A stretch of 64,000 nucleotides of DNA from Sanghuangporus weigelae (lineage: Eukaryota > Basidiomycota > Agaricomycetes > Hymenochaetales > Hymenochaetaceae): contig CP137321.1 of NCBI GenBank assembly GCA_033182465.1, positions 1,302,001 through 1,366,000 of the forward strand, in the 5' to 3' direction. This document shows, piece by piece, positions 20,027-29,700 of the stretch; position 1 is the stretch's first letter, and each line of letters begins with the position of its first letter. The notes under the pieces are model-generated. The model saw nothing but the letters and a program-made list of their open reading frames with translations. It was not told the origin of the DNA and ran no database searches. The position numbers and the translations under genes are program-made.

Positions 20027-21529
20027 ATGGCTTCTCGTTCTCTTGCGTTTCGTCTGTCTCGTCAGGTCCAGAGCGCCTCAAGCCCTCCGTTGGTACTTCA
20101 GTCCGCGCGTATCGTATATCACATCAATGATGGTTATCTCCCTGGTTTGTAGAATACCTCAGGCATACAAATGGGCGACATCCTACACCTCAACAAAGGA
20201 GAGACCTCTACTTGATATGTCTCAAGGCGTTCCAGGAATTCCTCCCCCGCCAATTCTTCTTGAAGCGTTGGGCAAATGCGCTGCAAATCCTCGGACCTGC
20301 GGGTACTGTCCAATGACTGGCGAGCCGTTGCTCAAAGCATCACTCGTACGAGAAATGAAAGTCACCTATGGCAAGGACAGTGATCTTTTCCCTGACGATG
20401 TTGCGCTGACCGCTGGTTGCAATATGGCGTTTATAACTGCTGTCATGTCTTTGGCGGATGCGGGGGACGAGGTCATATTGCCAGTACCTTGGTACGCATG
20501 AAACAGTTACAGTGTTACCAATCAGAACTTATCTCTTCTCTACAGGTATTTCAATCATGAGTCCGTTCTTATCCTGTTGTACTCCGCATGGCCTTCGTAT
20601 CTTGATTCAAGAATAGGATGACCCTTCAGATGCTTGGAATTACTCCTGTTCCCTTACAAACAACTCCGCAGGAGGGCTTCTATCCGTCGCCGGAAAGATG
20701 TGCGAAGCTCATCACCCCTAGGACCAAAGCGATCGTGCTGGTTTCCCCTAATAATCCTGTAACTTCCTTACAAATGAATATCACTTTCAGGTTCTGACCT
20801 TCGGAGCAGACTGGCGCTATATATCCCCCGTCCTTGATTTCTGCATTCGCGTTCTTGGCGAGAAGAAACGGCATAGCCCTGATCATGGACGAGACATATC
20901 GGGACTTTATATTAAGCGGGGTCCCACATCACTTGTTTGTACCCGGATCTCTCCAGGTGCAATCAGGACTGCCAGCAAATTGGACATGGAGGGAACACTT
21001 TATTCATCTCTTCTCGTTCTCGAAAAGCTACTGTATTCCTGGACATCGATTAGGCGCAATCGTTGCGTCCTCAGAAGTGTTGAGGCAAGTGGAGACGGTC
21101 CTAGATTGCATACAGATATGCCCTCCAAGGCACGCTCAATTGGCATTGCATCCCTTGCTTTCTGAGCTGCGTCCCTTTATCCGCGAGACGGCCGAGTCCG
21201 TAGCCCATCGCCATGATCTATTCAAGACCCATTTACCTAGTACGTGGAAGATCGGTTCTCAAGGAGGATACTATGCCTTTGTTCGACATCCCTTCAAAGG
21301 CGTATCTGCTAAGGACGTGAGTCGTCGAATGGCCATGGAAGCGGGTATTGTCACTCTTCCTGCCGGATTTTTTATGCCGCAACAACCCGGGACGAAGGAC
21401 GGGGCGATTGGAGTCGATGATGGATGGATACGATTCTCTGTCGCGAACGTAGACGACGAAAAGGTCAAAAGAGTCTGCTCGAGATTGAAAGAGTTGGAAG
21501 CAGAATTTGAGTGGGAATTGGATATCTAG
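20027..21529 (+). CDS. Class I/II PLP-dependent aminotransferase
   Basis: Fold-type I aminotransferase that moves an amino group between amino and keto acids using pyridoxal phosphate. The N-terminus (MASRSLAFRLSRQ) is basic and Ser-rich, like a mitochondrial presequence. Family motifs in order: LLDMSQGVPGIPPPP, the CGYCPMTGEPLL region, DDVALTAGCNMAFITAVMSL, VPWYFNHEMTLQMLGITPV, VLVSPNNPTGAIYPP, LIMDETYRDF with the PLP-binding Asp, FSFSKSYCIPGHRLGAIVAS with the Schiff-base Lys, and GWIRFSVANVDDEKV carrying the substrate-binding Arg. Substrate is not predictable; aspartate, kynurenine or aromatic types are possible. One exon is only 15 nt. Without the intron near 20100-20156 the frame breaks. 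Confidence 0.87.
20546..20560 (+). other. 15-nt microexon in the aminotransferase gene
   Basis: Between an intron ending CTACAG and one starting GTCCG lies GTATTTCAATCATGA. Joined to the flanking exons it restores WYFNHEMT in frame, a conserved family stretch, which supports the microexon. Confidence 0.75.
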
Positions 21530-21927: not shown

Positions 21928-22658
21928 ATGGCGCCACCCCTGGTTCGTCGTCGTGACCACTGAAACAATCACTCGAGTTAACTAATGTCATCCTTTATTC
22001 CAGCTTTGGAAGAAGAACGTGTTGCGCAGGGAATGGGGAGGAGCTTGGGCTAATGACGAAGAACGACTACAATGCGACGCAATGGAGAGGGATTATAGGC
22101 TACGGTTGTTTTCGGAAGAGCAGGTCAGAAGGCGCAAAGCTTTCAACGAACATCTCGAGCGAGAAAGGCGGGAAAAACTTAGGGCTTCTCGGATATTTGT
22201 GGGTAACGTGAGTATACACGTCTGACTTTTATTGGCTTTTGGCTAATCTGCTTTCCAGCTTAATTATACAGTCACTTACAAGACACTGGTCCGCGTCTTC
22301 AAGGCCTGCGGTCCTGTTAAGTACGCAAACATCAACTGCTTTGAGTTCCGCGAAAACTCTACGTGTTATGCCGAGATCGTATTCGACGACCCGGACGCTT
22401 ATAAGAATGGAGAATGCTTGAATGGCCTGCTTCTTGAAGGCCTAGCTCTTGTTGTGAGTATATGTCTCTTCTGGTTTACCGCGATGCTTATAGGCGCATC
22501 GAATGCAGGTCTGCACGAAGATACAGGATCTTCCGGAGTGGAAACAGCAAGGGCGATCAAAAGAAAGCCATCAAGCCACAAAGTATGACAGCCCAGTTGA
22601 TCAGAGCCTTGCCGGCTCCTCAGCAACTATTATTGCACACACCTCTACTTCCAAGTAG
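21928..22658 (+). CDS. RRM-domain RNA-binding protein
   Basis: Small protein of about 190 residues with a single RNA-recognition motif. A highly charged N-terminal helix (EWGGAWANDEERLQCDAMER to HLERERREKLRAS) leads into RNP2, RIFVGNLNYT. The fold continues TYKTLVRVFKACGPVKYANI, a weak RNP1 region (NSTCYAEIVFDDPDAY) and CLNGLLLEGLALVAHRM. The tail is short and polar, ending HTSTSK. The first intron lies directly after MAPPL and the others after FVGN and LALV. The exact orthologue is not recognised. RNP1 lacks the usual aromatic pair, so RNA affinity could be modest. Confidence 0.75.
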
Positions 22659-23105: not shown

Positions 23106-26100
23106 ATGGCCAAGAGTATGGCTTTGAATCCTAGCTCCGTTCCCTTTTTCCCTTCTGGAATGAGCACGAATGGTTCCGAGCAGGCCAGTGTTGGTGCTGG
23201 ATTAGGTTTCAAGGTGCCCACAACTGATAGAGACCGCGAGCCGTCGCGCGCGTCCATCACGACATTTATCTCTTCGGATTATCGTTCAGCCAGTTCGTCG
23301 CCCGTTGGCTCTTTGCCGACCACGGATAGTGGTGATGGGCCGATACGAACCAATTCCGGATCAAACTCTCCTGATTCCTCTGCGCTTGGCCAGCAAGCAG
23401 AAGAAAAGGATAAAAGTTTGCCTGACGTGTCTCGTTCACTTCAGCCACTTCGCGAAGGTGGCCCTATCATCGCACATTCTAGTGATACCTTCGACGGTGA
23501 AGAAACTCCGGGACCTCGTGCAATCCATCACTGGGTTATGAAGGCGCAGGCGCCAGCAAATCAAAGAAATGACTCCGTGGAATTCATGTCGGCTACGCAT
23601 GACGCGCAACAGGACCATCGCTTCAGCCAGACTATTATGCCCGGACCGAACAGGTCCTTGACGAGCTCTACTTCCCAATCGTTTCATACACCAATCAAGC
23701 CGGCGTCCCCAGCATCCTCAATTGGTTCCGCTAGTATTAATACATCCAGCGTTGATTTCTCCTCTTCAAGTTTCGAAGCTCAAATTAAAAACTCTCCGAC
23801 TATACGCGACTTATTGGATCGCCTTACAAGATGCGAGTTTTCTAACCGTGAAATTCAGCGCGAGCTAGCCGAAATGCACACCAAGGTTAACTTCCTCGTC
23901 GAGAGATCCTTGGGGTCTTTGACGACCGAGCCGGAGTTCAAAAATCCATTCGCTCCTACCAACGCGGCGTCGCGCAGCCTCACTCCTTCAATGGGTCTGG
24001 GTCCGCTTCAGACAGCAGCGTTTCCTGTTGGCTCGACCGTAAAGTCTGATGAACTTACTCAGTTATCCAATAGGATTAACAGCCTCACGACGTCTGTTGG
24101 TCAACTGCTTACTCTACAGACTCAACAGCACATGTCAAGCCTTCAGCAGAGTTTCGGGCAATCTGCCGGAACTGGCCCCCTCCAAAGCAACATCGATATT
24201 GCACCAAATCAGACTATCCTTTCGCCTGCGGTGGGCAATCTCGGACATGGGCTTCCGAATAGACCGGACTTACGTCCGTCTCCTCGGGTACCAAATCCTC
24301 CTATGCGTACGTGGTCCGCTGGAACGTTGGAATTGCCTATGCGTCCTGCGGACATGAATATCGGAAGACCGGATACTATTCATCGCGACAAGCGCAAATC
24401 GATCGCTGGGTTGATGAGAAGAGATTCTGCCGGAGTAAGTATCAAAGTCTCTGTTTAGACGTTGAAATGCATTTAAATTCGTCGTAAGATGCCTGATTCT
24501 CCAAATGACCAGTGGCTCGGCCAAGGGGGCTCTCCGCGTGACCCGGGACCGGTCGCTACGAAATGGGAGCATCTGCCACTTGCAGCTGATCTATTGCGTT
24601 CGCTGAATAAATTTGGGTGCGTCTACTTTCAAATGTCTGCTTCCGGTCGGTTATTCAATCCGCTTGTTTAATTCAGCGTCGGCCCGCCCAATAAAATTCA
24701 ACAAAGAGCCTTGCCCTTCCTTCTTAGAGGTGCGGATATCATCGCTCAAGCTCCGCCAACGCAGGAACGGATTGCGGCCTATGTAATTCCAGCGATTCAT
24801 GTTGCCGTGACGTACATGAATCAAACTTTGATCAGCCGTGGGCCTCTCGTCGTCCTCATTTCTACTACGGTGGATCAGGCAACACAAGCTCAACGCATAA
24901 TTCGAGATCTAGGCGGTTCTATTGGCGTCAAATCGGCGCTTGGCGTAGGTTCACTTGGCCCAAACAGCGATGTTTCGCAAGAACTACGTGTGTTGCAGCA
25001 GAACATGCCTCATATAATATGCGGCACTCCACAGAAACTTCATGCGCTTTTCACTGCTCCGGGAGGATTGTCCGGTTCCGAAGTCCGTTTTCTTGTATTG
25101 GACGAGGTGGATCAACTAATTGCTCGCAACTTGCACGAATTCGTTTTTAACATTGTAAAGCTACTCCCCCCGTCGCGCTCACGTGGAATTAACACATCAA
25201 CTCCTGGCCAATCGCATCTCGGTCCTCTTGACTCGCCATTCTCTCCTAGTGCAGGACGACGTGTTTCGGCCGTCGGTGTTATAGGATTCAATGGATCAAT
25301 TTCTGCTAATCCCGGGAATGCCTCACAGATCGAACGGCAAACAGCTTTGTTTTCTAATACCGTCCCTCAAGACGTTCTGAACTTAGCTAATGCCATCCAG
25401 CTGCGCGAGCCTGTTCGTGTCCTGGTGAGACGGGATGGAAATGTTACGCATTCCGAAACAAACCAGGGCACGAAAGGTCTTCGTCAGTTCTATCTATACC
25501 TTGCCTTTACGGCATCAGGAGCACGTTCCGATCCGTCGGCGATGAATGCTGGCGGAGGACATGGCATCATCGGCTCGGGACGCACTACAGGTTCAAGTGC
25601 CGAGGTGAATCAAGCCCGAGAATGGAAACTTGATGCTCTTGCAGACCTTTTGGATGATATAGAGGTACCGCAGATAATCATTCACGTCGGTGGACTCACG
25701 GCTCTGGATGCTGTGGTTTATAAGCTGGCAAGCAAGGGTCTTGAAGCCATTCCTCTGGTTAGTATTCTTGAAAGACATCATCTGAATGCTGACACAATTT
25801 GTCTCTAGCATAGTGACATGAATGCTGGCGCCAAACTAGCCGCTTTGAACAAGTTCAGGAATTCAGTTGGCGGAATGTTGAGAAAGCCTGTGACGAAGGT
25901 GTTGGTCGTCTACGATGTTCAAGTTAAGGCACCGGATGTGTTCCAGGTTCCCTTGGTCATAAATTATGGTACTTTGACAAATCCTTCGGAAAGGAAACCT
26001 GTTAATCATATTTTCAACTTAGATTTGCCTCAAGCTGTGGAAGAATATGCGCATCGGTATGCATGCTATGTTCATTCACTTGATGACCCTCCTAAAATTG

Positions 26101-26377
26101 TTGTCAGCGTCGCACCGGCTATCGCCAATAACTATTCTAAGGCGGGAGTGGTCGTAAACTTTGTGACCGCTACCGGGGGCGACGTCGAGATGTTGCGTTC
26201 TATTGAATGTTTCTACAAGTACGTCGCTGCCGTTCCCTGTTGTCACGAACGTAGCTTACTGACATCATTTTCACCAAGGATAAAATGCGTAAGTATCCAC
26301 CCTTGAATTAATTCTGATGTCGCTAACCTGTCCCCGACTAGCCCGAAGTGCCTCTCAGTATCCGCGATCTGTTCTAG
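23106..26377 (+). CDS. eIF4A-like DEAD-box pseudohelicase with long disordered N-terminus
   Basis: About 450 Ser/Pro-rich residues, with a short coiled coil (IRDLLDRLTRCEFSNREIQR), precede two RecA-like domains that follow eIF4A/FAL1 closely. The Q motif region is kept (PPNKIQQRALPFLLRGADII). Motif I, normally AQSGTGKT, is AQAPPTQER; motif II is DEVD instead of DEAD; motif III SAT is SNT. Motif V loses its Arg (VQVKAPDVFQ), and motif VI HRIGRGGR becomes HRVAPAIANN. The C-terminus FYKDKMPEVPLSIRDLF matches the eIF4A ending. All exons join in frame with no stop, so it looks like a working gene whose product cannot use ATP. It may act as an RNA- or eIF4G-binding scaffold; this is inference. Introns split motif VI and the final exon. 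Confidence 0.85.
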
Positions 26378-26789: not shown

Positions 26790-29700
26790 TTATATTAGAA
26801 AATCTCTCTGGCTTGAATTAGAAAAAAAATGCGACCTTTTACCGAGACAAACTTGCTGCGTCCACTTTTCAGGTGTCTCCTTCAGTCCGTCGTAAATCGA
26901 AATTTCGCCATTCTCCGTACCGATAGCTAATAGTCGCCTATTTCAATGTCAATATGAGCAGAAAAAGCGTATGAGAAAAAAAGACCTACCTCCCATCAGG
27001 AGACGCCTCCGTCAATGCGACTGCTGTCGCAGCTTCCTTTAATTTAATCGTATGTCGTGGAGTCTGCTTTTTCGAAGACAGATCGTGAACATGCCAAATT
27101 TTTACCTAAAGAGTCCGACAGTACTGAGCCAACTGGATGGCGATTGATATCTCTGAATCTCTTACCGTCTTGTCTCTAGAGGCAGTGACGAAAATGTCGT
27201 TTTCATGGGCCCAAGCGCAGTCCCAAATGATACGTGCATGCGATTTGTCCGCCTTTACAGCAACGTAACCATCTGAGAAACGATCATAGTAAACAAGCCT
27301 CAAGACGTGTCAGTTCAGGCTTACCATCATTCCTTTCATATAAGCACCAGCTCCTATCCCTGGAGACAGAAAGTATATATCGATCGTCAGGACTAAATGC
27401 GATTCGTGTAATTGTTAATTGATGCCCGAACAGAGTCTGCCCGTAAAGCTGCCAATTCTTCGTCTCATAAATCTTGATCCCCGCATGTTCAGGAGTAGTT
27501 GCCTTGCAAGAGGTCGCAACAAATTCTCCAGAGTGCGAGGCCACTATGGCATGCAACTGCAATAGAATTGCTTAAATTTTCAGGGACAAGTTGGGAGAAA
27601 TTAAGACAGTTTTTACTTCGTAGCCATGTCCGAAGAGCTTCTCCACTTCTGGCCACAGGGTAGAGACAGCGAGCTCTCCCTCAAATGGTCTTCTCTGTAC
27701 AGTTGAGGTAGTCGGAAGAGGAAAAGGGGTTTCGGCAGAATCATCTAGAGCTTTTCCAGTATCAAATAGAAATAACTAACAAGGTAATTACCTCCGTCGA
27801 CGGCCTTGTTAGATAATCCAAGTGGGGGTACAGAAGCCGCTGCGGGTCTCTATATTTGATTTTAGTTTGAATTGAGTGTAGATCTGTTATTACTAAAGTA
27901 TACCTCTGCTTCATCATCAATATCCGGAAGGATACCGAGATGCTTGCATAATGAAACGAAACTTCGAGGTGCATCAAACACTCGAGCAACCTTTTCATCC
28001 GCGATGCTCACGAATCGGGTCGATGTAAGGAAGACGGCGTCAATGAGATCATATCCATGCACTTGCGGTCGGCAGATTTCGTGCCATAATTCTGCTCCAC
28101 CGGTTGAGCTAGCAAGCACATTGCCATGAATGCGTGTTGTCTGATCAGGTCTAGATTCATCGTTCGATTTATTCGACGGCGATAATTTGGTATTATTCGT
28201 TTACTCACCCAGTTGAGATTAGATATTCTCCTCCCGGACTCCACGAAATGCCCTGTACTGGGCCCCTATGCCCAGTAACTGCACTTGCTTCTCTCCAGGA
28301 CTCACGAGACCGATTCGATGAATCAGCATTTTGTAGTTGAGATCGCCAGCGTCGCCATCCTCCTGACCACCCCCAGGCAAGCACGTCAGCTCCATCTCGT
28401 GCCCAGAGCCCTCCGATGAATCCGCCAAGTCTCTGCCCGCCTACATCACCGAACCGTTGCTGATTTATCCATAGCGATGTAGAAATTCCTGTCGAAGTAG
28501 ACACGGATGTGGGAGCCCATAAGATGATAGAGGAGTCAGTTGAGGTCGAGAGGAGCATTGGGCCGGAAAGATACGAGGGTCTCCAAGAGAGTGAAGTGAT
28601 TCCGGCTTCATGACCAATTAGGAGAGCGTCAAAGGTAATAGAATAGTGCAGAGAACTGTAAGTTTGCTTTCAATCAGGTTCAGGAAACGTATGAAGATAA
28701 ATGACCGTACCTTCCGTCCTTGCTTTTGGTAGCAAACACATGTCGCTTCATTGAGATTTGCCGCCCACCTTCTTCTCCTTCTCCGAAGTCGCCGAGAGAG
28801 GCCTCAAATGAATCGAGCAAGTCATCAGTCAAGATATTAGACTGCTGGTCCATAGATAGAAGTTTCTTTGCGACCGGTTCTATATTCCACAGACGAATTG
28901 TCCCGTCTTGAGAACCAGAAGCTAAGGTCAGAGTTGACGGACTAGCAATGTCGTATTGGAATGCAAGACTTTTCACCCAGTCTTCGTGTCCAGGCAGCGA
29001 AGCAGCTCGTACAAACTTTAGTACAGGCTGAGTTTCAGTAAGACTAAAGCACCGACGGGCATCTTACCGTCTCTTCAGATCGCGCGAAGATCGATATATT
29101 CCTTTCCGTCGAGGACACAGCCATTACGATGCCTTTTTACAGAATCAGCCAGAGCGAGGAAGCGCAGACAGTGAGTGGCAACCTACTATCAGATTTCGGT
29201 AGAGATGCGATCTGAATATCGAGAGGATACCTGCCCTTCATATCTATCCTCTGGATTTCTTCAAATCTATCTGAAGGACGATTAGAATGCTGAAAACGAG
29301 AAGTAGCCTTAAATATCACCTTTCTTTTCTCCAGGCAAAGAAACACGTTTCCATACGATAACTATTGCATCTGACGAGCCTGTAATAATGTAGTCTTCGT
29401 GGACGGCCAGGGCTGTTATGGACTTGGTATGTGCTTGCCAGGCGCTCACAGTCAACCACTGAAATGCGGAAAAGTGTTCAGTATATATTCAAGCACCTTG
29501 ATAGTCTCTTTTCTCGCCTTTTCATCATCCAGTCTCCAGCACCTCACAAGACCTCTGTCATCCGCGCTGAAGAAGCAACTCTCGCCAGACTTGAAGCGAA
29601 CGCAAGTTACAAGTCCATCATGGCCTGGTAGTGTTTGATAGATTCCGTTGTTGTCATCTTCCTGAAGGATCCATACAGTCAAATATATGCGCCGTCTAGA

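Follow-up and report, generated by a model that had tools for sequence, protein, structure and literature searches.

Gene model and family of the locus

The window considered here, the 64,000-nucleotide stretch of Sanghuangporus weigelae contig CP137321.1 that was analysed as a whole (positions 1,302,001 to 1,366,000 of assembly GCA_033182465.1), carries at its positions 23106-26377 a plus-strand gene whose predicted product belongs with the DEAD-box helicases of the eIF4A kind and has lost much of their catalytic apparatus. Reading of the plus strand places the ATG at 23106 and the stop codon at 26375-26377, exactly where a first-pass annotation, made from the letters of the DNA, had put them. 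The in-frame joining of exons announced by that annotation was also recovered: seven exons, all six introns between them being of the GT-AG type, are connected in phase into 972 codons followed by the stop. The gene is built as follows:

23106..24434, plus strand: exon 1, with the start codon and the N-terminal region rich in Ser and Pro (residues 1-443), from phase, GT-AG border and the composition of residues 1-455
24513..24616, plus strand: exon 2, start of RecA1, with the Arg equivalent to eIF4A1 R45 kept
24677..25757, plus strand: exon 3, RecA1 with the linker and the beginning of RecA2, from Pfam, PDB matches and an AF2 model
25809..26056, plus strand: exon 4, RecA2, from Pfam
26108..26218, plus strand: exon 5, opening with the degenerate motif VI (its HR closes exon 4, and VAPAIANN follows)
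26279..26288, plus strand: exon 6, a micro-exon of 10 bases
26342..26377, plus strand: exon 7, stop codon and eIF4A-type C-terminus PEVPLSIRDLF

The alignment to eIF4A runs without gaps across the 10-base exon 6, and the intron on the 3' side of this exon coincides in position and phase with one FAL1 intron of the same genome. No second copy of the gene was seen in a search of this genome (33.87 Mb, 13 contigs).

At the family level, both Pfam domains exceed their cut-offs (DEAD, 54.4 bits against 26; Helicase_C, 28.9 bits against 23.5), and the two RecA domains extending up to the C-terminus PEVPLSIRDLF, as previously proposed, were found. When the PDB set was searched, the best matches among two-domain chains were those of human eIF4A-I (E 7e-34, up to 120.6 bits), followed by eIF4A-III with 108-117 bits, yeast eIF4A with 88 and CshA, the best chain outside eIF4A, with 68. 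In NCBIfam, only bacterial DEAD-box families matched, every one of them under its cut-off. For the comparison with paralogues, 24 DEAD-type loci of the same genome were modelled and 15 of them entered the alignment, the divergent or doubtful models L025, L028, L029, L030, L033, L035, L037, L038 and L040 having been left out by eye before any count. Positions are numbered as in eIF4A1 (PDB chain index plus 17). The eIF4A and FAL1 genes of the genome were identified by matching PDB chains; DHH1, RRP3 and the other names given to paralogues are putative.

In a tree of 18 rows the protein falls inside the eIF4A/eIF4A-III class with support of 95/89, on a very long branch (2.16). Placement within eIF4A or within FAL1 received p 0.057 each in the approximately unbiased (AU) test, and the RRP3/DBP8 class was rejected (AU p 0.0017), though the identity to the RRP3-like protein nearly equals that to eIF4A. 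Gene structure provides a further line of evidence. Five introns lie within the helicase domain, and exact matches in position and phase number two with the eIF4A gene of the genome and one with FAL1, which has another intron one base off one of the two matched by eIF4A. A HAS1-like gene shows one exact match, but in the poorly aligned C-terminal part, and no exact match was found in the other 12 of the 15 paralogues; under a looser count (within one column, any phase), seven paralogues outside eIF4A have one or two near matches. These shared introns suggest the duplication of an intron-bearing gene, an origin that the locus fits better than that of a retrocopy. Membership of the eIF4A/eIF4A-III class is thus supported by the PDB ranking, the tree and the introns, in line with the class first assigned to the gene, and descent from eIF4A, from FAL1/eIF4A-III or from an ancestor older than their split would each be compatible with this placement.

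Several other identities and sources of relatives were considered. The protein is not Utp25, since no Utp25 family appears in its Pfam scan, and the Utp25_C domain of this genome sits on another contig (C5:649690-650261). No relatives were found in a collection of viral contigs, and 16 pattern matches in bacterial and archaeal genome contigs yielded no confirmed relative; neither result has a bearing on fungi.

Eroded catalytic motifs and a probably preserved fold

The motifs that distinguish the protein from an active helicase were located by alignment, under their usual names and ranges:

24750..24773, plus strand: degenerate motif I, APPTQERI for AQSGTGKT (alignment; other frames checked)
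25101..25112, plus strand: motif II, DEVD, acids kept (alignment)
25353..25361, plus strand: motif III, SNT for SAT (alignment)
25914..25940, plus strand: degenerate motif V, DVQVKAPDV for DLLARGIDV (alignment)

Motif I carries the changes G79T, G81E, K82R and T83I. Because the alignment to eIF4A contains no indel at this point and neither of the other two frames encodes a P-loop, this is not a simple frameshift, and as far as the sequence tells neither a frameshift nor a sequencing error accounts for motif I. In motif V the Arg has become Lys (R334K), and motif VI reads HRVAPAIANN for HRIGRGGR, with both arginines gone (R362P, R365N). Every motif change that had been quoted for this gene is therefore present. 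When near-universal DEAD-box columns, defined as those conserved in 90% or more of 16 active rows, were scored, 23 of 48 were found to be kept, whereas 13 paralogues outside eIF4A keep 86-100% of their leave-one-out sets. The lost columns include G79, G81, K82, T83, P108, R110, G160, R161, Q308, R311, R334, G335, G361, R362 and R365, and those kept include Q59 of the Q motif, D182, E183 and D185 of motif II, S213 and T215 of motif III, T158, P159, H358 and R359. Among the features expected of an active helicase, the motif II acids are there, and motif I (AxxGxGKT) and R362/R365 are not. The protein thus lacks the P-loop and the arginine fingers, and its RNA-contact motifs are damaged, while motifs II, III and Q are only partly eroded. 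The earlier description of every ATPase motif as eroded is too strong, because the acids of DEVD, the Ser and Thr of motif III and the Gln of the Q motif persist. Loss of ATPase activity is nevertheless very probable.

The constraint acting on the rest of the protein was addressed by a core-column test and a neutral simulation, used in place of dN/dS. Hydrophobic-core columns are still hydrophobic in 82 of 88 cases (columns gapped in the pseudohelicase being excluded), against a background of 43.5% in the protein itself (binomial p 4e-23), a retention at the low edge of that of the active rows (93-100%). Of the 36 invariant polar columns, 18 carry the identical residue. The Fisher p of 2e-7 for the difference between the two sets serves as a guide only, because 'still hydrophobic' and 'identical residue' are different criteria that do not compare like with like. 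When the eIF4A coding sequence of the same genome was mutated neutrally down to 31% identity, none of 300 runs remained free of stops, the mean being 11 stops. The open frame is consequently beyond what long neutral drift would leave, as had been suspected, and such drift is rejected by this result together with the retention of the core.

AF2 was used to model exon 3, which holds the longest uninterrupted part of the helicase region. Given an alignment built from bacterial DEAD-box proteins (51 of 80 loci as rows), it reached a mean pLDDT of 79.2, and ten-residue blocks of RecA1 reached 81-97 up to exon-3 residue 170. Two insertions contain parts of low confidence:

25191..25310, plus strand: within the insertion that separates motif II from motif III, pLDDT <50, exon-3 residues 172-211, absent in the six rows aligned beside it
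25542..25586, plus strand: within the Gly/Ser-rich insertion that separates the two RecA domains, pLDDT <50, exon-3 residues 289-303

The best Foldseek matches of this model are eIF4A structures, with eIF4A-III close behind; the DEAD domain 5zbz is matched with a root-mean-square deviation of 2.0 and a target template-modelling (TM) score of 0.78, and the two-domain eIF4A chains among the matches listed with TM scores of about 0.4-0.56. The alignment being made up of other helicases, the model is to be read as a sign of compatibility with the fold more than as independent proof of it. Structure prediction had been expected to display both RecA domains, and for exon 3 the model is compatible with an eIF4A-like fold. 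The core columns, the 23 of 48 near-universal columns and the exon 3 model agree with the original view that the fold was kept and catalysis lost; frame and fold look selected while catalysis does not.

Docking face, N-terminal region and competing readings

What the selected function might be is suggested by one helix of RecA2:

25620..25655, plus strand: RecA2 docking helix EWKLDALADLLD, with a complete acidic face equivalent to eIF4A1 E257/D261/D265/E268

The four positions 257, 261, 265 and 268 read EDDD, the same as in FAL1 (EDDE in eIF4A), whereas 13 other DEAD-box rows have between zero and two acids there. In the alignment R45 and D265 are kept, and E268 is replaced by Asp as in FAL1. 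In line with the alignment, D270 and D273 of eIF4A3 are taken to be equivalent to D265 and E268 of eIF4A1. From the yeast complex, R45, D265, E268, D296 and T298 of eIF4A1 were deduced to contact eIF4G, and the eIF4A1 variant D265R/E268K/D296A/T298K is reported to be impaired in its interaction with eIF4G (PMC7470955). Likewise, eIF4A3 D270K/D273K is described as unable to bind CWC22 (PMC4482076).

Because the parts that burn ATP have been lost while the fold and the acidic face that grips partners are kept, the role of the protein is probably one of binding and not one of catalysis. The whole chain of argument leads to a selected, ATPase-dead pseudohelicase of the eIF4A/eIF4A-III class that docks on a MIF4G-type partner and would hence act as scaffold or decoy, to which a probability of roughly 45% is assigned. 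RecA2 and the R45 equivalent would bind a MIF4G/HEAT-domain partner such as eIF4G, CWC22 or a NOM1-like protein, and open-closed cycling on ATP and RNA would not take place. A docking side offered without ATP turnover would turn the protein into a constitutive scaffold or into a decoy for eIF4A or FAL1. The retained EDDD face is in line with the non-enzymatic role imagined at first, that of a scaffold or of a competitor for a partner of eIF4A.

A number of observations weigh against this interpretation. The persistence of DEVD, SNT and Gln59 makes some nucleotide contact possible. Two of the five eIF4G contacts are lost (D296G and T298E), although the FAL1 protein of the same genome also lacks D296, having Thr, and an Arg at position 45 occurs in two of the 13 other rows as well (SUB2-like and DBP10-like). 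Over the segment 255-275 the retention of eIF4A-specific residues (5/13 against 22/104) is not significant (p 0.15). With regard to ancestry, a placement as sister to DHH1 keeps p 0.25 in the AU test, identity over the whole domain is 31.3% to the eIF4A of the genome and 30.2% to the RRP3-like paralogue, and in RecA1 the RRP3-like protein is even the closer one (63/202 against 56/202). Finally, AF2 run on the single sequence of exon 3 gave a pLDDT of 36.7 and was discarded.

The N-terminal region, of 443-455 residues, is Ser- and Pro-rich and begins MAKSMALNPSSVPFFPSG. Its features are:

23118..23153, plus strand: PAM2-like peptide MALNPSSVPFFP, residues 5-16, with Ser at the invariant PAM2 Ala
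23823..23906, plus strand: heptad (coiled-coil-like) stretch 1, residues 240-267, by a simple heptad count, proline-free
24054..24137, plus strand: heptad (coiled-coil-like) stretch 2, residues 317-344, by a simple heptad count, proline-free

No Pfam domain exceeds its cut-off in this region, and its length agrees with the disordered N-terminus of about 450 residues described before; because of the two proline-free heptad stretches it may not be purely disordered. An eIF4E-binding motif is absent from it, the sole match in the protein being at residue 524, within RecA1. The PAM2 motif is defined by a hydrophobic residue at position 3, Asn at 4, Pro or Val at 5, an invariant Ala at 7, Phe at 10 and Pro at 12 (PMC2854688), and a bulkier side chain in place of the Ala is considered sterically highly unfavourable (PMC7356810). 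The sequence LNP....F.P at residues 7-16 supplies Leu3, Asn4, Pro5, Phe10 and Pro12; position 7 is Ser, and the strict form of the motif is absent from the protein. When the N-terminus was shuffled 20,000 times, the form admitting Ala or Ser came up in 27 cases, a frequency to be read with the fact that this pattern was sought after inspection of the sequence and among four patterns. Pfam gives no PAM2 match in the protein, which counts for little with a motif this short, and the genome search shows one MLLE-domain place. Known pairs of MLLE and PAM2 are reported to bind with a Kd of 0.2-40 uM (PMC9249222). The PAM2-like peptide is a lead, not a finding. In the scaffold or decoy reading it would recruit the protein to PABP-bound mRNA, and the heptad stretches would serve oligomerisation. 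A PABP-tethered pseudo-eIF4A may be imagined, in which the peptide sits on poly(A)-bound PABP, the heptads multimerise and an ATP-blind RecA2 occupies the MIF4G platform of eIF4G (or of CWC22/NOM1). This elaboration is quite unlikely; if true, it would be a built-in, regulated version of the laboratory's dominant-negative eIF4A mutants and a brake on translation or on messenger ribonucleoproteins differing in design from PDCD4 or Paip2.

Other explanations of the locus need to be weighed together. The protein might be a pseudohelicase scaffold of another ribonucleoprotein (RNP), as Utp25 is in the small-subunit processome, its RecA pair forming a folded platform with docking acids inherited and unused. 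The same architecture of a disordered N-terminus and two dead RecA domains in Utp25 (PMC9539457) favours this view, as do the loss of D296 and T298 and the lack of significant enrichment in the docking segment; the retention of all four acids on one face of the helix, which the 13 paralogues do not show, and the assignment to the eIF4A class rather than to Utp25, whose C-terminal domain lies elsewhere in the genome, speak against it, so that it is possible but less likely than docking on a MIF4G-type partner. That the protein is not fully dead, and clamps RNA either independently of ATP or with bound nucleotide by means of the Q motif, DEVD, SNT, TP and HR residues, is unlikely. Q59, D182, E183, D185, S213, T215, T158, P159, H358 and R359 are indeed kept, and charge is partly conserved (K82 to Arg; R161, R311 and R334 to Lys), but both P-loop glycines, T83, R110, G160, R362 and R365 are lost, and the single changes R362K and R365K are reported to abolish helicase activity and to impair RNA binding and ATPase to differing degrees (PMC7470955).

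A decaying pseudogene or relaxed relic would account for the long branch and for the missing catalytic motifs, and the simulation excludes long drift rather than a recent loss of constraint, given that at 90% identity the frame was still free of stops in 53 of 300 neutral runs. Against it stand 972 codons without a stop, GT-AG borders at all splice sites, the failure of every neutral run at 31% identity, the hydrophobic core and a GC content at third codon positions (GC3) of 0.478, which is at the low end of the range of eight DEAD-box paralogues (0.478-0.602) and still inside it, so that a relic is hardly credible. The N-terminal frame could also lie outside the main product. An ATG at 24489-24491 on the plus strand, inside intron 1 and in frame with exon 2, could start an isoform of about 537 residues without the N-terminal region, the PAM2-like and heptad parts then belonging to another isoform. 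This is very unlikely, as exon 1 ends in a consensus GTAAGT donor with matching phases, intron 1 has 78 bases, a usual size for a fungal intron, and two genes on the same strand only some 30 bases apart would be unusual.

The pseudohelicase gene has the following neighbours in the window:

20798-21526, plus strand: exon-like frame upstream, class I/II aminotransferase (Pfam 77.4 bits)
22250-22588, plus strand: RNA recognition motif exon (Pfam RRM_1, 25.7 bits), next gene upstream, same strand
28205-28669, minus strand, likely on towards 26800: WD40-repeat frame (Pfam 37.3 bits), convergent with the pseudohelicase gene; perhaps Elongator subunit 2, which is a guess

Elsewhere in the genome, the closely similar DBP2-type helicase genes L022 and L024 (genome G000, contigs C3 and C7), with branches of about 0.07 each, may represent a recent duplication.

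Comparison with known systems

The closest known protein is eIF4A (eIF4A-I, TIF1/TIF2), with which the pseudohelicase shares two RecA domains from end to end, the type of C-terminus and the best PDB match. With the eIF4A gene of its own genome it has in common two introns in the same position and phase, R45 and the acidic docking helix. It differs in being only 31% identical, in the lost P-loop and arginine fingers, in the two insertions, in the N-terminus of about 450 residues and in the missing D296 and T298 contacts. The docking acids EDDD are identical to those of eIF4A-III/FAL1, with which one intron is shared and one lies a base off; catalytic losses and an identity of 31% set it apart again, and the genome carries, besides this gene, a FAL1 gene whose motifs are intact. 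A further parallel would be Paip1, a PABP-interacting MIF4G protein that, anchored on PABP, regulates the eIF4A-eIF4G module. If PABP anchoring were true, the present protein would be alike in this respect, with the difference that Paip1 carries the MIF4G side and the pseudohelicase the eIF4A side, and that its PAM2-like peptide is devoid of the invariant Ala of the motif, whose Paip1 version is named in PMC2854688.

Pseudohelicases are hardly charted. They are characterised by vestigial motifs, a preserved helicase structure and a function without catalysis; known members are Utp25 and PriA of Deinococcus, and the authors of the Utp25 study present it as, to their knowledge, only the second one proposed (PMC9539457). 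The retention of 23 of 48 near-universal columns places the present protein among proteins with vestigial motifs. No eIF4A-class pseudohelicase was found among the listed titles and abstract starts of open-licence papers, which is not proof of absence. The kind is already known from Utp25, and the eIF4A lineage and the design appear new within the open-licence literature searched. An eIF4A-class pseudohelicase without the ATP site but with a docking face would be nature's equivalent of the dominant-negative mutants of eIF4A, and with it the part that eIF4A plays through binding could be tested directly and apart from its ATPase activity. Utp25/Def remains the nearest precedent, in that it combines a disordered N-terminus with a dead DEAD-type RecA pair (PMC9539457), and the protein described here differs from it in a similarity to eIF4A that is clear by sequence and in carrying no Utp25 Pfam family.

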